From Caldisericaceae bacterium (GTDB lineage Bacteria > Caldisericota > Caldisericia > Caldisericales > Caldisericaceae), in contig JALVXB010000005.1 of the NCBI GenBank assembly GCA_027023025.1, positions 1 through 60,564 on the forward strand: a DNA stretch of 60,564 bases, given 5' to 3'. This document shows, in pieces, positions 19,148 to 30,234 of this stretch (position 1 is its first letter; every line of letters begins with the position of its first letter). The position numbers and the translations under genes are program-made. The notes beneath the pieces are model-generated. The model saw only the letters and a list, made by a program, of their open reading frames with translations. It did not search any database and was not told the origin of the DNA.

Positions 19148-19172
19148 TACCTTGAATATAAGGAGGCATTCT

Positions 19173-20612
19173 ATGCAAGATATTGTTGAAAGTGCTTTAC
19201 TCTCAGCAAAAAGAGCCGGCGCGTCCTATGCGGATGTGCGCATTGTGGAGCAGGAAGTCGAAGAAATTTCCACAAAGAACGGTAGTGTGGACGCGCTAAA
19301 GCGGTCCTATACGAGAGGTTTTGGGGTAAGAGTCATTTTTAACGGTGCTTGGGGTTTTTCTTCCTCGTTTAGGATGACGAATGACGAAGCTGAGAAGATT
19401 GCCGAAGAGGCCGTGGCTATTGCTAAGGCAAGCAGTATGACGAAAATTGAAGATGTTACACTTGCAAATATCGAGATCTTTCAGGACGATGTAAAACAAC
19501 CTGTAAAAATTAACCCCTTTTCTGTTTCTCTGTCTAAAAAAATCAACTTATTGCTTGAGGCAGACAAACTAATGAAAATTCCTGGCGTAATTGTTAGAAG
19601 TGGCAGTATGTATTTTCTGCGTGAAATCAAAACATTTGCATCCTCTGAAGGCTCTTACATAAAACAGGAGCGAATAGTGAGTGGCGCTGGTATTTCATCC
19701 ATTGCAACTAACAGGAATGAAATCCAGGTCCGAAGTTACCCAAGCAGTTTTGGTGGAGATTATCAGCGCAAAGGATACGAACTCGTTGAAGAATATAAAT
19801 TTCTTGATAACGCAGAGCGCATTGCGAAAGAGTCTGTTGCTTTACTTAAGGCAAAACCGTGCCCTTCTGGAGTGATGGATATAGTTTTGGGAGGTGCTCA
19901 ACTTGCCTTGCAGGTTCACGAAAGCGCAGGACATCCCACAGAATTAGATAGAGTTTTAGGAGAGGAAGCTTCATTTGCTGGGACTTCTTTCCTTACCCCT
20001 GATAAGTTAGGTAAATTTCGTTACGGTTCTGATGTAGTAAACATTACTGCAGATGCAACGATACCAGAAGCGCTTGGTGGGTTTGCATACGACGACGAAG
20101 GAGTGAAAGCAAAGAGAATATATCTCGTGAAGAATGGTTTGTTTGTAGGGTATTTAAACTCGCGTGAAACTGCAAAAAAATTGAAACTGGAGCCAATGGG
20201 TGCTATGCGTGCCCAGAGCTGGAACTTTATGCCTATTATCAGAATGACGAGCATAAATCTTGAACCCGGAGACAAGACACTTGACGAACTTATTGCGGGT
20301 GTTGATCGCGGTATTTATATGGATACGAATAAAAGCTGGAGCATTGACCAGAATAGACTAAATTTCCAGTTTGGAACTGAAATAGGTTGGGAGATTAAAA
20401 ATGGAAAAATCCAGGATATGGTAAAAAATCCCACTTATACTGGTATTACTTATGAATTCTGGAGGAGCTGCGATGCGATAGCAAACAAAAACTTCTGGCA
20501 TGTATGGGGTGTTCCAAATTGCGGAAAAGGTGAACCGATGCAAACGATGCAGGTAAGCCATGGAGTTGCCCCTGCGCGCTTCAGAAATGTGAAGGTGGGG
20601 GTGCTGAAATGA
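19173..20612 (+). CDS. tldD: TldD metalloprotease subunit
   Basis: About 479 residues from the ATG at 19173, which has AAGGAGG 6 nt upstream; an in-frame TTG at 19152 precedes the ribosome site and is rejected. The metal-binding motif HESAGHPTELD (HExxxH) identifies the catalytic subunit of the TldD/TldE protease, which removes leader peptides from modified peptides or degrades unfolded ones. Other family features: ADVRIVEQEVEEI near the N-terminus and the C-terminal NPTYTGITYEFW. The end overlaps tldE by 4 nt (ATGA), matching the obligatory heterodimer. Confidence 0.94.
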   Translation: MQDIVESALLSAKRAGASYADVRIVEQEVEEISTKNGSVDALKRSYTRGFGVRVIFNGAWGFSSSFRMTNDEAEKIAEEAVAIAKASSMTKIEDVTLANIEIFQDDVKQPVKINPFSVSLSKKINLLLEADKLMKIPGVIVRSGSMYFLREIKTFASSEGSYIKQERIVSGAGISSIATNRNEIQVRSYPSSFGGDYQRKGYELVEEYKFLDNAERIAKESVALLKAKPCPSGVMDIVLGGAQLALQVHESAGHPTELDRVLGEEASFAGTSFLTPDKLGKFRYGSDVVNITADATIPEALGGFAYDDEGVKAKRIYLVKNGLFVGYLNSRETAKKLKLEPMGAMRAQSWNFMPIIRMTSINLEPGDKTLDELIAGVDRGIYMDTNKSWSIDQNRLNFQFGTEIGWEIKNGKIQDMVKNPTYTGITYEFWRSCDAIANKNFWHVWGVPNCGKGEPMQTMQVSHGVAPARFRNVKVGVLK

Positions 20613-21949
20613 TTGGTAAAGAAAAGGCATTAGAAATATTAAAAAAAGCGTTGTCTTATTCCCAGGCAGACCAGACTGAAGCTGTACTCCTTGGGGAACG
20701 CTCGTATCTTACGGGTTTTGCTAATAACTATATTCATAGGAATGTAGGAAGCGAAAATTACCAACTCAATGTAAGAGTTGCATTTGGCAAAAAGATAGGT
20801 GCAGCAAGTGCTAATGTTTCTGATGAAGAATCAATTCAAAAAGTAGTAAAAGATGCAGAAATGCTTGCAAAGTTCCAGAAGGAAAATCCAGACTTTGTTT
20901 CGTTTGCAAAGAAAGAAGAAGCTAAGTTTGACAGCAATCTTGGCTATGCCGAATCTACGGCAGAGTGTAATGCTGAAAAGCGTGCGATGCTTGCAAAGAA
21001 AATTATTGACCGCTCTAAAAAGTTTGATTTTAATGCGTCTGGAACTGTAGAGACGGCAACGCAAGAACTTGCCGTTATGAACTCTCTTGGGGTGGAACGC
21101 TATGCCGTGCGGACTGTTGCATCAGTAAAAGGCGTTATTATGGGGAGTACATCAAGCGGTTATTCTAAGGAGAGCAATGTAGATATTGATAAAATAGATG
21201 TAAATAAAGTTGCTGAGGAAAGCGTAAGCATTGCAGATAAGGGCAGAAATCCTGAACCAATTGAACCGGGTAAATACGAAGTAATACTTACTCCTTATGC
21301 TGTTGCAGAGTTTATCTCTCACATGCTATATTTGTCCTTAAATGCTCGTGCGTTAAAAGAAGGTTCAAGTTTTCTTATAAATAATTTTGGTAAAAAACTC
21401 TTAGGTGACAACATTACGATGTTTGACGACGGATTTTCCAAACTTACGATACCAATGCCTTTTGACTTTGAAGGTGTTCCTAAAAAGAAGGTCGTATTTT
21501 TTGAGAATGGGGTTGCAAAAGAAGTTGTATACGATACCTTAACTGCTTATAAAGAAGGAAAAGAGTCTACCGGCCATTCGTTGCCGCAGCCAAACCCTTA
21601 CAGCCCATACCCGATGAACTTTATAATGCAGGGTGGGGAAAGCAATGTAGAAGGTATGATATCTAATGTAAAACGCGGACTTTTTGTTCAAAGATTCTGG
21701 TATACTAATGTAATGGATCCAAGAAATCTCGTTATTACGGGAATGACGAGAGACGGGCTATTTTTAATAGAAGACGGAAAAATTACGCGATCGCTTCAGA
21801 ACATGCGTTTTACTGAAAGTATAATTACTGCTTTAAATAGTGTCTCTGAAATTAGCGAATTAGTAAAAGTTATATACGATATGACGCCAATAACCGTCCC
21901 ATACTTGAGAATTAGTAATTTTACTTTTACTGGAAAAACAGAATTCTGA
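20609..21949 (+). CDS. tldE: TldE/PmbA metalloprotease partner
   Basis: 446 residues, coupled to tldD by a 4-nt overlap. It has the same fold as TldD but lacks the HExxxH motif, as expected for the non-catalytic partner. Landmarks: DQTEAVLLGERSYLTGFAN, a central GTVETATQELAVMNSLGV, PGKYEVILTPYAVAEFISHM and, near the C-terminus, FVQRFWYTNVMDPRNLVITG. TldD and TldE together form a barrel-like protease. No modified-peptide gene is visible nearby, so the substrate is unknown. Confidence 0.92.
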   Translation: MIGKEKALEILKKALSYSQADQTEAVLLGERSYLTGFANNYIHRNVGSENYQLNVRVAFGKKIGAASANVSDEESIQKVVKDAEMLAKFQKENPDFVSFAKKEEAKFDSNLGYAESTAECNAEKRAMLAKKIIDRSKKFDFNASGTVETATQELAVMNSLGVERYAVRTVASVKGVIMGSTSSGYSKESNVDIDKIDVNKVAEESVSIADKGRNPEPIEPGKYEVILTPYAVAEFISHMLYLSLNARALKEGSSFLINNFGKKLLGDNITMFDDGFSKLTIPMPFDFEGVPKKKVVFFENGVAKEVVYDTLTAYKEGKESTGHSLPQPNPYSPYPMNFIMQGGESNVEGMISNVKRGLFVQRFWYTNVMDPRNLVITGMTRDGLFLIEDGKITRSLQNMRFTESIITALNSVSEISELVKVIYDMTPITVPYLRISNFTFTGKTEF

Positions 21950-21982
21950 TATAATAAATAAATTTTGGAAGGAGGTTGTAAT

Positions 21983-23008
21983 ATGAAAAGATACGGGATT
22001 TTGTGTGATGGAGGAGATGCTCCTGGAATTAATGCAGCAATAAGAGCAATTGCAAGAACTGCATTTGAAAAAGAGGACGAGGTGTTAGGCTTTCAAGACG
22101 GTTTTTTTGGCCTCGTTAATAACGATGTAAAAATCATAACTAAGCACAGCGTTTCTGGTATCCTTCCATCTGGAGGCTCTATACTCGGTATATCTCGGTT
22201 TAATCCTTTTAAGGACCCCAAGTACATTCAGGCAATAAAGGAAAATTTTAAAAAGAATGCATTAACTATGCTTATTTTTATAGGCGATAGAGATACAATT
22301 AATATTGCTAATAGTCTTTCTAAAGAAGGAATTCCCTCAATTGTCGTCCCTAAGACGATTGACAACGACATTTGGGGCACGGATTTTTCAATTGGCTTTG
22401 ACAGTGCCGTTGGAATTATCAGTTATGCATTGGACAACTTGCACTCTACTGCTTCTTCTCACCATAGAGTTATGGTTGTAGAAACAATGGGGAGGGAAAC
22501 AGGCTGGCTTGCCTTATTTGGTGGACTTGCAGGCGGTGCTGACTACATCATCATTCCTGAAGTGCCATACGACATAAAGGATGTTGCAGCACACATTGAA
22601 AAGCGCAAGAGAGAAGGTAAGAATTTCAGTATCGTTGTAGTTGCTGAAGGAGCGCCACTACCAGCAGGAAAAGAGGAAAATGTGGAAAAGGATGACTTTG
22701 GGCATCCTATTAATAGAAAGCGTAGGGTTGGATATACGATTATGGAAGAGCTAGAGAAACTTACAGGCATAAAGTCTAGAACTACGGTACTTGGGTACAT
22801 ACAGAGAGGAGGTATGCCTACGACTTCTGACAGAATTCTTGCAACGAGATTAGGAAATGCAGCAGTAGAGTTTGCAGACGAAGGCAAATTTAACGGAGTG
22901 GTAGGCGTTAAAGGGGGCAAAATTCAATTTACTCCTCTTGAAGAGTCGGCTGGAAAAATCCACAAGGCAGATACAAAATTCTACGAGTTAGCGAGGATAT
23001 TCTTCTAA
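21983..23008 (+). CDS. 6-phosphofructokinase, probably PPi-dependent
   Basis: 341 residues from the ATG at 21983 (GGAGG 7 nt upstream); an earlier TTG at 21965 precedes the ribosome site. Family motifs: GDAPGINAAIRAI, PSGGSILGISR, VPKTIDNDIWGTD and ETMGRETGWLALFGG. ATP-dependent enzymes have glycine before TIDND; the lysine here, together with the aspartate in GDRDT, marks the pyrophosphate-using group. Oddly, the usual GGD(D/G) loop reads GDRDT, so arginine falls where the magnesium-binding aspartate is normally placed, unless the loop is shifted. It works in glycolysis/gluconeogenesis. Follows tldE by 33 nt and precedes the DUF4388 gene by one nucleotide. Confidence 0.87.
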   Translation: MKRYGILCDGGDAPGINAAIRAIARTAFEKEDEVLGFQDGFFGLVNNDVKIITKHSVSGILPSGGSILGISRFNPFKDPKYIQAIKENFKKNALTMLIFIGDRDTINIANSLSKEGIPSIVVPKTIDNDIWGTDFSIGFDSAVGIISYALDNLHSTASSHHRVMVVETMGRETGWLALFGGLAGGADYIIIPEVPYDIKDVAAHIEKRKREGKNFSIVVVAEGAPLPAGKEENVEKDDFGHPINRKRRVGYTIMEELEKLTGIKSRTTVLGYIQRGGMPTTSDRILATRLGNAAVEFADEGKFNGVVGVKGGKIQFTPLEESAGKIHKADTKFYELARIFF

Positions 23009-23009
23009 C

Positions 23010-23645
23010 ATGCTTGAAGGCAGCTTAAAAGATTTTACACTTGACGAAGTACTTCAAATTATTTCAATGGGTGAGAAGACCGGTCGCCTTATTCTTAAAG
23101 GTGAAACTCCGTTTGGGAAGAAGGAAGGAGCAATATTCTTTGAAAGAGGGCAGGTAAAAGATGCTGAAACTGAGCAGTATCGAGGTGAACCTGCGGTAGT
23201 GGACTTATTGAGTATTAAAGAGGGATATTTTAAATTTGTACCTGAAGATGTTTCTCATATTAAGCAGTCTATAAATAAATCCATTCCAGACCTCGTTCTC
23301 CTTGCTACATCTAAGTTAGACGAATGGGATAGAATTAAGAATAAAATATCTTCAGTGGACTCTGTTTTTAAACTTTCCTCTGATGGAATTCCTGAACGCA
23401 TTCACCTTACCCCTACCCAGTGGAGAATTATTTCTTTACTTAGTAAGGGGCTTACAATAAGGCAGATTGCATTAAAACTTAATATGACCGTGATTGATGT
23501 ATCAAAAGATGTTTATGGGTTAGTAGCGCTTAAGATCGTAAGAGAAGTGGGTCAAAAGGATGCAGAAGGAAAGAGATTCGTTAAGAGGAGAGGTGCCTCT
23601 CGTAATTTTATAATAAGATTAATAGAAAGGTTGAAACGAGTATGA
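23010..23645 (+). CDS. DUF4388 (PATAN-like) protein with C-terminal helix-turn-helix
   Basis: 211 residues. The N-terminal 100 residues match DUF4388: MLEGSLKDFTLDEVLQII, TGRLILKGE, GAIFFERGQVKDAE and an EGYFKF strand. Residues 130-185 look like a winged or LuxR-like helix-turn-helix (LTPTQWRIISLLSKGLTIRQ, then MTVIDVSKDVYGLVALKIV). DUF4388 proteins are found beside response regulators and small GTPases in signalling and motility systems. The stop overlaps the start of the following GTPase by 4 nt, so the two are almost certainly partners. DNA binding is inference. Confidence 0.75.
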   Translation: MLEGSLKDFTLDEVLQIISMGEKTGRLILKGETPFGKKEGAIFFERGQVKDAETEQYRGEPAVVDLLSIKEGYFKFVPEDVSHIKQSINKSIPDLVLLATSKLDEWDRIKNKISSVDSVFKLSSDGIPERIHLTPTQWRIISLLSKGLTIRQIALKLNMTVIDVSKDVYGLVALKIVREVGQKDAEGKRFVKRRGASRNFIIRLIERLKRV

Positions 23646-24178
23646 ATAGATACAAAATCGTTATTTCAGGTCCGTTTGCTGCCGGGAAAACTACTTTTAT
23701 TAATACTGTTACAGAAATAGATCCGGTAAATACGGAAGCAAAAACGACGCATACAAATGAAGCTGGAATTAAAGATTCCACCACAGTTGCCATGGATTTT
23801 GGCAGAATAACACTTGATGGGGAGAATGTACTTCACATTTTTGGGACACCAGGACAGTTTAGATTTAATTATATGTGGAGTATACTCGGGAAAGATGCAC
23901 TGGGTATTATCGTAGTGGTAGACTCTGGAGAGAAAGATAAGTTCGACGAAGCAAGGGACATGATTAACTTCTTTAGAGTAAAGACAGACGCTCCTCTCGT
24001 AGTTGCATTAAACCAGTTTGAGAACAAAAATGGACTTACCGAAGACGAAGCGCGAAAGTTACTGGGGTTGCCCAATAAAATACCGATTATAAGTTGTGAT
24101 GCAAGAAATAAGGAGAGCGTTAAACATGTTTTACTCGAGTTGTTGCGGTTAATACTTGCACGCGGGGATACTTATTGA
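23642..24178 (+). CDS. Small Ras-like GTPase of the MglA/COG2229 type
   Basis: 178 residues. P-loop SGPFAAGKTTFINTV, switch threonines (DSTTVAMDFGRI), G3-like motif IFGTPGQFRF and a specificity segment NQFENK instead of NKxD, all usual in the COG2229 group of bacterial Ras-like GTPases. Such proteins act as polarity or signalling switches, often with a roadblock-domain activator; none is visible here. It is translationally coupled (4-nt overlap) to the DUF4388 protein, which is the likely effector or regulator. It ends a run of four closely spaced genes. Confidence 0.82.
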   Translation: MNRYKIVISGPFAAGKTTFINTVTEIDPVNTEAKTTHTNEAGIKDSTTVAMDFGRITLDGENVLHIFGTPGQFRFNYMWSILGKDALGIIVVVDSGEKDKFDEARDMINFFRVKTDAPLVVALNQFENKNGLTEDEARKLLGLPNKIPIISCDARNKESVKHVLLELLRLILARGDTY

Positions 24179-24255: not shown

Positions 24256-26526
24256 ATGAAAGCAAAGAAGATTCTAGTAATCTTGATTGCAGTCTTAATG
24301 ATTGCAACCGTATTTGCAGGTTGTGCTCCTAAACAGAAACCTTCAGAAGGTGGCGGACAAAAACCTGCTGAAACGAAGATCAAAATCGGTCTCGTAACAG
24401 ATGTAGGTGGAAGAGGAGATAGGTCGTTTAACGATTCTGCTCTTAGAGGCCTTGAAATGTGGGCAGCAAAGGTGAAGTATGTAAAAGGTGGCGGATACCA
24501 ACCGCTGACTGATGCTGAGTACGAAGCAAGTATTCCTGACGACCTGAAGGATAAAGACATTCACCCTTTAAACATCACACCCGTCGTTCTTGAATCTAAA
24601 GCAAAGGAAGACTATGTTCCTAACCTTACGACACTTGCAGAACAAGAACATTGCGACCTCGTAATAGGCGTTGGGTTTATGCTTGCTGGTGCAGTTGGTG
24701 AAGTTGCAGCAAAACACCCAAATACAAAGTTTATGCTTATTGATGCCTTACCAGTTGATTCACAGGGTAAGGTCGTAAATCTTCCCAATGTCGTAAGTTA
24801 CTTGTTTAAAGAAAATCAGTGCGGATTCCTCGTAGGTGCAATTGCAGGTTATGCTACGAAAACGAACAAAATTGGTTACATCGGTGGAATGAAGATTCCT
24901 CCAGTGCTTAGATATCAGGCTGGATTTGAAGCAGGTGTAAAGACTACAAATCCTAAAGCAAAGATTATCTCTCAGTATGCTGGTAGTTTTACTGAACCTG
25001 CAAAAGGTAAAGCATCTGCAGAGTCTATGATTGCACAGGGTGCAGATATTCTCTTCCATGCGGCAGGTGCAACTGGCAACGGTATGTTCCAGGCACTTTG
25101 CGAAAAGAACGATCCAAACCTCTGGGGTATTGGCGTAGATGTAGACATGGGTAAAGATCCTAACCTCTGCCCTGACAGAACTCTCACATCTGCTCTTAAA
25201 CATGTCGATTATGCAACCTATCTTGCAATTAAGAGTGTGGTTGACGGTACATTCAAAGGCGGAGTAGTTACTATGTCACTTAAGGACGGTGGCGTAGGTT
25301 ATGCTCCTGACCATGTAAAAGATGTACTTAGTGCAGAACAGATTAAGAAAGTAAACGAACTTGCAGATCTTATAAAAGAAGGAAAAGTTATTGTTCCAGA
25401 GGATCCGTCCCAGGTTAAAGATTGGGTTGCCCCAACTGCTCTTCTTAAGGGCAAGGTGATCAAAATCGGTCTCGTAACAGATGTAGGTGGAAGAGGAGAT
25501 AGGTCGTTTAACGATTCTGCTCTTAGAGGCCTTGAAATGTGGGCAGCAAAGGTGAAGTATGTAAAAGGTGGCGGATACCAGGTTCTTTCAGATGCTGATT
25601 ACGAAGCAAGTATACCGGACGACCTGAAAGATAAGCCGATATTCCCGTTGTATATAAAACCCGTCGTTCTTGAATCTAAAGCAAAGGAAGACTATGTTCC
25701 TAACCTTACGACACTTGCAGAACAAGAACATTGCGACCTCGTAATAGGCGTTGGGTTTATGCTTGCTGGTGCAGTTGGTGAAGTTGCAGCAAAACACCCA
25801 AATACAAAGTTTATGCTTATTGATGCCTTACCAGTTGATTCACAGGGTAAGGTCGTAAATCTTCCCAATGTCGTAAGTTACTTGTTTAAAGAAAATCAGT
25901 GCGGATTCCTCGTAGGTGCAATTGCAGGTTATGCTACGAAAACGAACAAAATTGGTTACATCGGTGGAATGAAGATTCCTCCAGTGCTTAGATATCAGGC
26001 TGGATTTGAAGCAGGTGTAAAGACTACAAATCCTAAAGCAAAGATTATCTCTCAGTATGCTGGTAGTTTTACTGAACCTGCAAAAGGTAAAGCATCTGCA
26101 GAGTCTATGATTGCACAGGGTGCAGATATTCTCTTCCATGCGGCAGGTGCAACTGGCAACGGTATGTTCCAGGCACTTTGCGAAAAGAACGATCCAAACC
26201 TCTGGGGTATTGGCGTAGATGTAGACATGGGTAAAGATCCTAACCTCTGCCCTGACAGAACTCTCACATCTGCTCTTAAACATGTCGATTATGCAACCTA
26301 TCTTGCAATTAAGAGTGTGGTTGACGGTACATTCAAAGGCGGAGTAGTTACTATGTCACTTAAGGACGGTGGCGTAGGTTATGCTCCTGACCATGTAAAA
26401 GATGTACTTAGTGCAGAACAGATTAAGAAAGTAAACGAACTTGCAGATCTTATAAAAGAAGGAAAAGTTATTGTTCCAGAGGATCCGAGTAAAGTTAGCA
26501 GCTGGACACCTCCATCTAACTTTTAA
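24256..26526 (+). CDS. BMP-family substrate-binding lipoprotein, tandemly duplicated
   Basis: 756 residues, about twice the usual length. Signal peptide with lipobox VFAGC (Cys23), so a lipoprotein. Two BMP (Med/PnrA-like) domains follow, beginning near residues 41 and 401, each with KIGLVTDVGGRGDRSFNDSA and a C-terminal CPDRTLTSALKHVDYATY. BMP proteins deliver nucleosides to RbsA-like ABC importers, which agrees with the three genes downstream. The two domains are almost identical in DNA: 123 bp at the front and 829 bp at the back match exactly, differing only in a 78-bp patch and the ends. ATG with AAAGGAGG upstream. Confidence 0.9.
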   Translation: MKAKKILVILIAVLMIATVFAGCAPKQKPSEGGGQKPAETKIKIGLVTDVGGRGDRSFNDSALRGLEMWAAKVKYVKGGGYQPLTDAEYEASIPDDLKDKDIHPLNITPVVLESKAKEDYVPNLTTLAEQEHCDLVIGVGFMLAGAVGEVAAKHPNTKFMLIDALPVDSQGKVVNLPNVVSYLFKENQCGFLVGAIAGYATKTNKIGYIGGMKIPPVLRYQAGFEAGVKTTNPKAKIISQYAGSFTEPAKGKASAESMIAQGADILFHAAGATGNGMFQALCEKNDPNLWGIGVDVDMGKDPNLCPDRTLTSALKHVDYATYLAIKSVVDGTFKGGVVTMSLKDGGVGYAPDHVKDVLSAEQIKKVNELADLIKEGKVIVPEDPSQVKDWVAPTALLKGKVIKIGLVTDVGGRGDRSFNDSALRGLEMWAAKVKYVKGGGYQVLSDADYEASIPDDLKDKPIFPLYIKPVVLESKAKEDYVPNLTTLAEQEHCDLVIGVGFMLAGAVGEVAAKHPNTKFMLIDALPVDSQGKVVNLPNVVSYLFKENQCGFLVGAIAGYATKTNKIGYIGGMKIPPVLRYQAGFEAGVKTTNPKAKIISQYAGSFTEPAKGKASAESMIAQGADILFHAAGATGNGMFQALCEKNDPNLWGIGVDVDMGKDPNLCPDRTLTSALKHVDYATYLAIKSVVDGTFKGGVVTMSLKDGGVGYAPDHVKDVLSAEQIKKVNELADLIKEGKVIVPEDPSKVSSWTPPSNF
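24378..25407. repeat. Large tandem repeat, unit A (BMP domain 1)
   Basis: Repeats at 25458-26487, offset 1080 bp (360 codons). Segments 24378-24500 and 24579-25407 are identical to the second unit; only 24501-24578 diverges. Confidence 0.95.
25458..26487. repeat. Large tandem repeat, unit B (BMP domain 2)
   Basis: Second unit of the in-frame duplication in the lipoprotein gene; the divergent patch lies at 25581-25658. Confidence 0.95.
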
Positions 26527-26576: not shown

Positions 26577-26600
26577 AATTTATAAATGAGAGGTGAAGAT

Positions 26601-28124
26601 GTGAAAGCATTAGAGTTAAAGGGTATAACAAAACAGTTTCCAAGGGTTCTTGCAAATGATCACATAAATCTTTCTATAGAAAAAGGAGAGATTTTTTCTA
26701 TAGTAGGCGAAAATGGAGCAGGTAAGTCTACTCTGATGAAAATCGTTTATGGGCTTTATACACCGACATCAGGTGAAATATATGTATTCGGAAAGAAAGT
26801 TAACATGAAAAGCCCTCACGATGCAATAAAGCTAAAAATAGGAATGGTACATCAGGAATTTATGCTTATTCCCAGGTTTACTGTTACGGAGAATATAGTA
26901 CTTGGGGACGAACCTCGAAAGGGCATAGTATTTGACTTTAAACGAGCAGTAAAAGAAATAAGGGAAATTTCGGAGAAGTTTGGTTTAAAAGTAGATCCAC
27001 TTGAGAAAGTTGCGAATTTACCTGTAGGAATACAACAGAGAGTAGAAATTTTGAAGATTTTAAGGCGCGGTGCAGAAATTCTTATTTTCGATGAGCCTAC
27101 TGCAGTCCTTACTCCAGAGGAAACAGAGGACTTATTTAAGACATTAAGGGCTCTTAAAAAAGACGGGAAGACGATTTTATTTATATCGCATAAGTTGAAA
27201 GAAGTTATGGAAATTTCAGATAGAATTGCCGTGTTAAGGCGCGGTAAATTGCAGGGTGTTGTTAAAAAAGAGGAAACGAACGAACGGGAATTAGCGCGTA
27301 TGATGGTGGGAAGGGAAGTGGTGCTTGAGATTCCTAGAGTTAAGGTTGAAAAAGGGCCAGTTGTGCTTTCAGTCCGCGACCTTGCAGCAAAAGATCACAG
27401 GGGCATTTTGAAGTTAAAAGGTGTTTCTTTTGATGTGCATGCGGGTGAGATTGTTGCTATTGCAGGCGTTGAAGGAAATGGCCAGATGGAGTTAGTCAAT
27501 TCACTAATTGGTTTTACCAGGCCCGTTAAAGGTAAGATCGTCTTAAATGGTGAAGAGATGAAGCTAATTACGCCTTACAATGTGAGAAGAAAAGGGATGG
27601 CTTACATTCCTGAAGACAGGAAACGAAGGGGCCTTGTTTTACCTTTTAAAATCAGAGAAAATATTATTATGGGACAGCATACACTCTATCCATTTTCAAA
27701 AGGAGGCATTTTAAACGATAAGGTAATTAACGAATTTGCTACCAAACAGGTAGAGGAATTCGACATAAGGCCGCGTGATATTTATATAAACGCTGGAAAC
27801 CTCTCGGGCGGTAACCAGCAAAAGGTAATTCTTGCAAGAGAAATGGCTATGAAACACAACTTCCTGCTTGCTTCTCAGCCTACTAGAGGACTTGACATTG
27901 GTGCTATGGAATTTGTTTATAAACATCTAATAGAGGAGAAAAAGAAAGGTATAGCAATATTGCTTATATCTCTTGAACTTTCTGAAGTGCTGGGACTTGC
28001 AGATAGAATTCTCGTAATGTACGAAGGTGAGATCGTTGGAGAAACAGTTCCTGAAGAAACAAATGAAGAAGAATTGGGTATGATGATGCTTGGTATTAAA
28101 CGCAAGGAAAGGCTGGTGCAATGA
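26601..28124 (+). CDS. Nucleoside ABC importer, double ATPase subunit
   Basis: 507 residues from the GTG at 26601, preceded by GAGGTG; an ATG at 26586 lies on the ribosome site. Two ABC domains in one chain as in RbsA/MglA-type sugar and nucleoside importers. Domain 1 has Walker A GENGAGKSTLMK and Walker B ILIFDEPTAVLTP. Domain 2 has a degenerate Walker A (GVEGNGQMEL), signature NLSGGNQQKV and SQPTRGLDIGA, as is normal for this family. It is the second gene of the BMP-lipoprotein operon and overlaps the first permease by 4 nt. Confidence 0.93.
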   Translation: MKALELKGITKQFPRVLANDHINLSIEKGEIFSIVGENGAGKSTLMKIVYGLYTPTSGEIYVFGKKVNMKSPHDAIKLKIGMVHQEFMLIPRFTVTENIVLGDEPRKGIVFDFKRAVKEIREISEKFGLKVDPLEKVANLPVGIQQRVEILKILRRGAEILIFDEPTAVLTPEETEDLFKTLRALKKDGKTILFISHKLKEVMEISDRIAVLRRGKLQGVVKKEETNERELARMMVGREVVLEIPRVKVEKGPVVLSVRDLAAKDHRGILKLKGVSFDVHAGEIVAIAGVEGNGQMELVNSLIGFTRPVKGKIVLNGEEMKLITPYNVRRKGMAYIPEDRKRRGLVLPFKIRENIIMGQHTLYPFSKGGILNDKVINEFATKQVEEFDIRPRDIYINAGNLSGGNQQKVILAREMAMKHNFLLASQPTRGLDIGAMEFVYKHLIEEKKKGIAILLISLELSEVLGLADRILVMYEGEIVGETVPEETNEEELGMMMLGIKRKERLVQ

Positions 28125-29296
28125 TGGCTATGGATATTTTCCGCAGGATTTTTTTTGGTCGTAAAGAAGAATACTGGTGGATGAAGATTCTCGTTCCTAT
28201 TACTTCCATCTTTGTAGCACTTATTGTAGGTGCTATTTTTATCTGGTCGACTGGAAGGAGCCCTGTGCTTGCATATAAGTATCTGTTTGGTGCTTCAGGA
28301 TTGGTTCCAGGTCCTTACTTTAAGCAACACTTTGCAGAGATGCTTTTATCTTCCAGTATGTTTATTGCAACGGGACTTGCTTTTGCAATTGCAGCAAAAG
28401 GCGGATTGTTTAGTATAGGTGCAGAAGGGCAATTCCTCGTAGGCGCAATTACAGCTGCATACTTTGGTTATGCAAAACCTTTTGCTTCGATGCCAACCTT
28501 AATCCACCTGACGGTAATTTTTGTAATGGTAATGTTAGCGGGAGGTATCTGGGGTGCAATTGCTGGCTGGCTGAAGGCAAAAATGGGTATACACGAAGTT
28601 ATTACTACAATTATGTTGAACTGGATTGCGTTATATCTAATCGAAGACTGGCTTGTTACAGGACCAATGAAAGCGAATGTGGAAACCGGGGTTTCCGGTA
28701 CTCCATATGTGAGTGAAACTGCAAAACTTCCTATCATACTTAAAGGAACGAGGCTTAACATTAGTATTCTTATTATAATCGTCGTTGCATATCTTACCTG
28801 GTTCTTGCTTTATAGAACGACATTTGGTTTTGAAATCAGGGCTATGGGATATACGCTTATATACAATATGGATGCGCCTCGTGCGGCAGGTGTCAGTGTT
28901 GATGCGCGTATTACTCAAACGATGTTTGTGTCTGGGGCTGTTGCGGCACTTGGTGGTGCATTTATTATTTTAGGTGTATTGTTCCAGTTCCCTCCAGTCT
29001 TCGAAGGTGGATATGGGTTTGACGGCATTGCTGTGTCGTTAATTGGACAAAATGAGCCTTTAGGTGTATTTCTTGCAGGAATTCTTATAGGTGGGTTAAG
29101 AACTGGTGCGACGGCAGTTCAGCTTGCGCACATTCCAAAGACATTTCCATCGATTATTGAGGGGCTAATTGTTGCCTTTATCGCACTTCAGGAACTTATA
29201 AGATACCTGCTTATGAAATTGCTTGTACATAAGAAAAACAATACTGTTTCTGGTGGGAGTGACGAGAAAGCAGTGAGCGGAGGTGTTGCTAAATGA
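28121..29296 (+). CDS. Nucleoside ABC importer permease 1
   Basis: 391 residues, multi-spanning, belonging to the BPD_transp_2 family (NupP-like). Typical segments: LAFAIAAKGGLFSIGAEGQFLVG in the central region and MGYTLIYNMDAPRAAGVSVD, the cytoplasmic loop that contacts the ATPase. C-terminal tail is hydrophilic (lysine/serine-rich). Overlaps the ATPase gene by 4 nt upstream and the second permease by 4 nt downstream, so expression is coupled. With the BMP lipoprotein it indicates uptake of purine or other nucleosides. Confidence 0.9.
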   Translation: MMAMDIFRRIFFGRKEEYWWMKILVPITSIFVALIVGAIFIWSTGRSPVLAYKYLFGASGLVPGPYFKQHFAEMLLSSSMFIATGLAFAIAAKGGLFSIGAEGQFLVGAITAAYFGYAKPFASMPTLIHLTVIFVMVMLAGGIWGAIAGWLKAKMGIHEVITTIMLNWIALYLIEDWLVTGPMKANVETGVSGTPYVSETAKLPIILKGTRLNISILIIIVVAYLTWFLLYRTTFGFEIRAMGYTLIYNMDAPRAAGVSVDARITQTMFVSGAVAALGGAFIILGVLFQFPPVFEGGYGFDGIAVSLIGQNEPLGVFLAGILIGGLRTGATAVQLAHIPKTFPSIIEGLIVAFIALQELIRYLLMKLLVHKKNNTVSGGSDEKAVSGGVAK

Positions 29297-30234
29297 ACCT
29301 GTTAAACTTATCGATTGCTCAGATGTTTGACTTTGCTGCTCCAATTTTGTTTGCGGCACTTGGTGGTGTAGTTTCAGAAAATGCAGGAGTCGTAAATATT
29401 GCACTTGAGGGTATTATGCGTTTTGCTGCATTCTTTGGCGTGTGGGGTGCATTTATTGGAAAGAATCCCTGGATGGGTTTGCTCTGGGGGCTTTTAATCG
29501 GTGCTGCAGTTGGAGCATTGCACGGTTATATATCTGTTACATGGGCAGGTGACCAGATCGTTTCGGGTGTTGCAATCAATGTCGTTGCGATGGGTATTAT
29601 TACTTATCTGCTTGAATTTGTGTTTAAAACAACGGGGTATTCTCCTCCAGTTCCTTACTTTGGTGCTGCCCACTACAGAGTGCACATTTCGTTTATTTCA
29701 AAAATACCTATTCTTGGCGCATTTTCTAACTTAACATTGCTCGTGTGGTTTTCGTTGATTGCCGTAGGTTTAATTCACTTTATGCTTTATCATACCGTAC
29801 TTGGTTTGAGAATTCGTGCTGTGGGAGAAAATCCTCATGCTGCAGAGACGCTTGGCGTAAATGTTATGAAGATAAAGTGGTTTGCTACAATTTTAGGAAG
29901 CGTGCTTGCTGCTTTTGGTGGAATATCTCTTTCATTGGGAACTCTATCGTCTTTTACCAATGCGATGCCTATGGGTAAAGGATTTATTGGACTTGCTGCG
30001 ATGATATTCGGGAAGTGGACACCTATCGGTGCGCTTCTTGCATCGCTCGTATTTGCTTCTGCTCAGATTGTGCAATTACTGCTTCAGGGCATGGCTTCTG
30101 GTATTGCAAAGCAGATTCCATTAGGTTTTTACCTTGCTTTACCGTACTTACTTACGATAGGTGCCTTAATTGGTGTTGTGGGAAGGGCGGTACCGCCTGC
30201 ATCTGACGGAATTCCATATAAGAAGGAGGGATGA
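29293..30234 (+). CDS. Nucleoside ABC importer permease 2
   Basis: 313 residues, the shorter of the two permeases (NupQ-like). Signature stretch [20 protein letters not shown] near the N-terminus and the ATPase-contact loop [17 protein letters not shown]. About eight hydrophobic segments. Ends 1 nt before the YbjQ-family gene. It completes a lipoprotein-ATPase-permease-permease operon of the same order as the Bacillus nup genes. Confidence 0.9.

Follow-up and report, generated by a model that had tools for sequence, protein, structure and literature searches.

Nucleoside importers of the PnrA/BMP type are customarily encoded by an operon comprising a lipoprotein, a double ATPase, and two permeases. 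The pocket of one such lipoprotein, BmpA, involves Phe27, Asp98, Val224, Asp225, and Lys242 (PMC13325309). Substrate-binding domains arranged in tandem are found in GlnPQ, where they act independently and are connected by a 14-residue linker (PMC8025302). Tandem BMP proteins were not found in our literature searches. Related copies can also evolve in concert (defined in PMC2720389), and a paralogue or segment may escape such concerted evolution by gene conversion, as in CEACAM1 paralogues (PMC7042247). The window analyzed here, a stretch of 60,564 nucleotides from a Caldisericaceae bacterium (contig JALVXB010000005.1), contains an unusual two-domain BMP lipoprotein, for which real intragenic concerted evolution is well supported. 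Its best overall explanation, which we regard as probable, combines an old duplication, recombinational homogenization, escape of one loop by divergence, and two equal nucleoside cups.

Domain layout, binding pocket, and operon

The gene (24256–26526, + strand) encodes a BMP/PnrA-like protein of 756 amino acids, which matches the PF02608 profile in two stretches (422.5 bits against a cut-off of 24.1) and is present once in a genome of 1.66 Mb (43 contigs, 99.9% complete). Its translation, read by eye, starts with a hydrophobic leader, a signal peptide (24256–24321) with the lipobox VFAG↓C at its end (Cys22), typical of a lipoprotein. The leaders of the corresponding proteins in two other genomes, G001 and G002, closely resemble it. 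The two PF02608 units, domain 1 (D1) and domain 2 (D2), are offset by 1080 bp (360 codons). In D1, a first homogenized tract of 123 bp (24378–24500) is identical to 25458–25580 in D2, and a second of 829 bp (24579–25407) is identical to 25659–26487. Between them lies a divergent patch of 78 bp, at 24501–24578 in D1 (residues 83–108, PLTDAEYEASIPDDLKDKDIHPLNIT) and at 25581–25658 in D2 (VLSDADYEASIPDDLKDKPIFPLYIK), with 24 mismatches and no indels. Under an even distribution over 1030 bp, the chance of all 24 differences falling within these 78 bp is about 10^-27 by our own arithmetic. The two near-identical domains with exact identities of 829 and 123 bp, as given in the preliminary description, were therefore recovered. 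Its statement that only the patch differs holds inside the domain but not beyond it, since the leader (before 24378), the linker (after 25407), and the tail (after 26487) differ as well. The interdomain linker (25408–25457, about residues 384–400, i.e., ~17 residues, SQVKDWVAPTALLKGKV) has diverged from the C-terminal tail of D2, which, as delimited by comparison in the repeat register, occupies 26488–26526 together with the stop codon. A few single-base differences in the 829-bp tract could be hidden by short-read bubble removal, because the read depth and platform of the window assembly are unstated. On the − strand, two identical ORFs of 147 amino acids (24760–25203 and 25840–26283) are a mechanical by-product of the repeat.

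The patch forms the connection between helix 1 and strand 2. In an alignment to solved nucleoside receptors, residues ~82–112 face three residues of pneumococcal PnrA, and residues 69–111 face about 11 residues of Lbp; from these gaps, the patch sits in an insertion without a counterpart in the solved proteins. The earlier placement of the patch near the N-terminal lobe was correct, and the alignment refines it to the helix1–strand2 connection within this lineage-specific insertion. The helix1-to-strand2 edge of a β-α-β Rossmann unit points away from the ligand cleft. The pocket residues of BmpA map to Phe58, Asp163, Val294, Asp295, and Lys315 by motif, BmpA itself not being shown in the alignment, and all five lie outside the patch and are identical in D1 and D2. 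Indeed, the motifs SFN, LID, GVD, and SALK align with the solved chains and are invariant in alignment A1, with variation only around them. According to the alignment, the first homogenized tract of D1 includes the predicted base-specificity loop as well as Phe58 and Asn59. A single-sequence AlphaFold2 model of the whole protein (mean pLDDT of 40.6) gave a weak hint of a helix-loop-strand at the patch.

Directly downstream, on the + strand, are genes for an ABC ATPase with two nucleotide-binding domains, the importer partner (26586–28124, PF00005 twice), and two BPD_transp_2 permeases (28121–29296 and 29293–30234, both PF02653), which is the operon type of PF02608 proteins. This set of one ATPase and two permeases fits the previously suggested two-site feeder for one ABC importer, although the feeding itself is something we infer. 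Both cups would bind the same nucleosides and pass them to the single downstream importer, and the second cup would provide each lipid anchor with more binding sites. Judging from the operon and the pocket identity, the most likely arrangement is a pair of equal nucleoside sites that share a lipid anchor and serve one ABC importer; the nucleoside ligand, the equal affinities, and delivery by both domains are all predictions from sequence. Against NF047927, the model for putative substrate-binding proteins of B6 ABC transporters, the protein scores 144.6 bits, below the equivalog cut-off of 400. The upstream DNA (19152–24178) encodes two TldD/PmbA-type peptidases, a phosphofructokinase, a DUF4388 protein, and a small Ras-like GTPase, and is collinear in G001 and largely so in G002.

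History of the two domains

The sole other sequenced genome of the genus, G001, shares ~91% DNA identity with the window genome (G000). Over the comparable flanks (275 bp from the two tracts), D1 and D2 show no differences, whereas the window genome and G001 differ at 17 positions. In the patch, 6 differences separate D1 from G001, 24 separate D1 from D2, and 27 separate D2 from G001. The tree topologies are consequently in conflict, with ((D1,D2),G001) for the flanks and ((D1,G001),D2) for the patch, where support is modest (0.59–0.93) given only 78 bp. These contradictory trees support the gene conversion proposed at the outset, or an equivalent recombination between the copies. The domains have been homogenized in the window species: the tracts of D1 and D2 show 0 changes at 218 synonymous sites, compared with pS values of 0.21–0.28 against G001, indicating that the last homogenization took place long after the species split. 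The divergence of the patch, in turn, predates that split. Paralogues within the genome are thus closer than orthologues, and the boundaries are mosaic, as in concerted evolution. These sequence patterns reflect concerted evolution through homologous recombination, with conversion and unequal exchange being indistinguishable.

The following course of events would account for the locus. An ancient in-frame tandem duplication of the PnrA/BMP domain would have preceded the split of the two sequenced species of the genus. Recombination between the 1080-bp units, by gene conversion or unequal exchange, would then repeatedly overwrite one unit with the other, holding both binding pockets and docking faces identical. 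The helix1–strand2 loop, a fast-evolving lineage-specific insertion, would have diverged (~30% over 78 bp) enough to halt the conversion tracts, which would leave the loop with its two old versions. That mismatch is what stops conversion, and that G001 was homogenized as well, the latter from its contig ends, are steps that we infer.

Both domains lie on one contig in the window genome only, and the second domain of G001 is deduced from contig ends. The contigs of G001, which carry MEGAHIT-style names with k151 (k151_313263), break inside the gene from both sides: in window coordinates, the 5′ contig runs up to 24730 and the 3′ contig starts from 26297. The 5′ contig stops 152 bp beyond the patch, an end observed at 24730 and expected near 24729, as results from k = 151 assembly of a repeat whose copies turn identical after the patch (24579). 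By the same reasoning, the identical tract in G001 should end near 26447, ~40 bp short of its end in the window, so that this species would have undergone a homogenization event of its own. This second species very likely has the repeat too, bounded on the left at the same place, and, given these contig ends, the duplication is not confined to a single assembly. A 23S search of the window genome itself, gauging the resolution of long repeats, gave one copy. Contigs of G002 (end of C13, L041), G049 (end of C105, L062), and G050 (end of C238 and start of C259, L058 and L057) also break in this gene near the loop and were not counted as evidence. Duplicated or strain-variable copies are possible at these breaks; those of G049 and G050 may reflect mixed strains, and that of G002 is not interpretable by k-mer distance, as the k of its assembler is not known.

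Of the 54 Caldisericota genomes searched, the window genome was the only one with both domains in one ORF, with G001 as the deduced second case, and one domain is present in most of the family, including the single-contig genome G007. At the threshold used, none of 146 genomes with BMP genes from another phylum gave a two-domain match. The N-terminal anchors of BMP proteins vary in the phylum (L042, L054, L077), with a Cu_amine_oxidN1 stalk in g10 and three SLH domains in f7, and a BMP protein of 452 amino acids in f3 has an additional N-terminal segment. A search of viral contigs gave a single distant BMP gene (L088), a complete lipoprotein gene at 1429–2521 that is 31% identical and lies on the 105-kb viral-classed contig IMGVR_UViG_3300005714_000005, which may represent host DNA among the viral sequences.

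Divergence of the loop and its recurrence in a sister family

Between the patches of D1 and D2, pS is 0.76 and pN is 0.17; with pS near saturation, a test for dN excess leaves room for weak positive selection at single codons. For the same 26 codons in single-domain orthologues, the pS/pN values are 0.73/0.195 (G007–G003) and 0.55/0.193 (G007–G013), and D1–G007 gives 1.10/0.178. By comparison, pN is at most about 0.06 in residues 42–81. Only one nonsynonymous change in the 26 codons separates the D1 patch from that of G001. The diversifying selection initially proposed for the patch is not borne out, since synonymous differences exceed nonsynonymous ones just as in single-domain orthologues across genera; the equal divergence of those orthologues makes it unnecessary, and it was dropped. 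The loop is the least constrained segment of the domain, in single-domain orthologues too, and its divergence between D1 and D2 is the amount expected from free evolution since roughly genus-level times.

A parallel is provided by the sister family (g10), which has two adjacent BMP genes, of which A includes a Cu_amine_oxidN1 stalk and B encodes a lipoprotein. Four genomes with both genes were compared, the tandem loci being L042 (2033–5185, G022), L043 (G043), L044 (G038), and L045 (G042). The core of these genes (alignment columns 150–285) clusters by genome, with support of 0.97–0.995 for three of the four pairs, and its pS is 0.14 within genomes versus 0.45 between them. The helix1–strand2 loop, on the other hand, splits A from B, the A group having a support of 0.99. 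The loop is not the sole escaping region there, as the final 85 codons are likewise paralogue-specific. In G038, A and B resemble each other over the 3′ portion of the loop, which suggests a conversion tract ending inside it. A tree of the patch places D1 with D2 (0.93) and A with B (0.997), suggesting that the duplications of the window and of the sister family are independent.

This recurrence bears on the possibility that selection keeps the patches apart, i.e., that the two domains have different partners through the loop, such as a permease docking site or an inter-cup contact, and that overwriting conversions are lost. The same loop escapes in a second family, apparently after an independent duplication, and there it carries class-fixed amino acids (pN of 0.26 between classes and 0.09–0.14 within them, at similar pS). 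Yet, a nonsynonymous excess is absent, and the divergence between the D1 and D2 loops is at the ordinary orthologue level. Moreover, the likeness of A and B in G038 looks as if converted, meaning that conversion is not forbidden there, and the intrinsically fast evolution of the loop accounts for its recurrence without selection. We therefore regard selective maintenance as a doubtful explanation. Its stricter form, in which the loop of Caldisericota BMP proteins is a paralogue-specific contact with the permease, the sister domain, or another partner, kept distinct despite conversion in two independent duplications, seems unlikely; if true, it would mean one lipoprotein with two cups that share the same pocket and dock differently. 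Fast evolution that blocks conversion is the simpler account of the recurrent escape, although the data do not decide.

A recent duplication, followed by replacement of the 78-bp patch of one copy with DNA of another species, would explain why the patch shows divergence at the between-genera level next to identical flanks. Against this, the orthologous D1 patches match, and the D2 patch clusters with the D1 patches of its own genus (0.86–0.93), not with another genus. The G001 contig end at the k-mer distance also means that the patch-bounded repeat predates the split or arose twice, and homogenization would be required in both species anyway. Disfavored by the patch tree, such an import is improbable. 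An assembly artefact, in which a single real domain was duplicated or chimerically joined, is highly improbable and was rejected on the contig ends of G001: an exact 829-bp repeat is difficult for short reads, and the window genome is a 43-contig draft of unstated assembly method, but the patches, linker, and tail all differ in frame, so that the second copy does not consist of the same reads, and the independent assembly of G001 breaks in the same gene from both sides.

Comparison with known systems

PnrA/TmpC, BmpA/BmpD, Lbp, and pneumococcal PnrA belong to the same PF02608 fold family and operon type, and their pocket residues align with those of the window protein. However, the solved members found contain one domain, whereas the window protein has two per chain, and each of its domains adds a helix1–strand2 insertion of ~28–32 residues. 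GlnPQ is similar in its serial substrate-binding domains, its short linker (14 residues there and ~17 here), and its single importer. Its domains, by contrast, fall into a different structural cluster, are joined to the permease in one chain, and have distinct specificities and affinities; in the window, the substrate-binding ORF is separate from the permease genes and encodes a free lipoprotein with identical pockets.

A tandem BMP protein with pockets held equal by recombination makes it possible to test cleanly how a second cup on a shared anchor contributes to an ABC importer. In addition, an unconverted loop that recurs in the tandem genes of a sister family constitutes a natural experiment on divergence versus selection as the cause of escape. 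The A and B genes of that family resemble the window in having neighboring BMP domains, a homogenized core, and an unconverted loop at the same place, but they are separate genes, A is stalked (Cu_amine_oxidN1) and B is a lipoprotein, and their C-terminal part escapes too. Concerted evolution of the CEACAM1 type likewise shows paralogues closer than orthologues and an escape from homogenization. Unlike those paralogues, the window copies share one bacterial ORF, and their escaping segment bears no sign of positive selection. In all, the locus illustrates neatly how gene conversion acts within one gene in nature, and it is not a novel kind of system.
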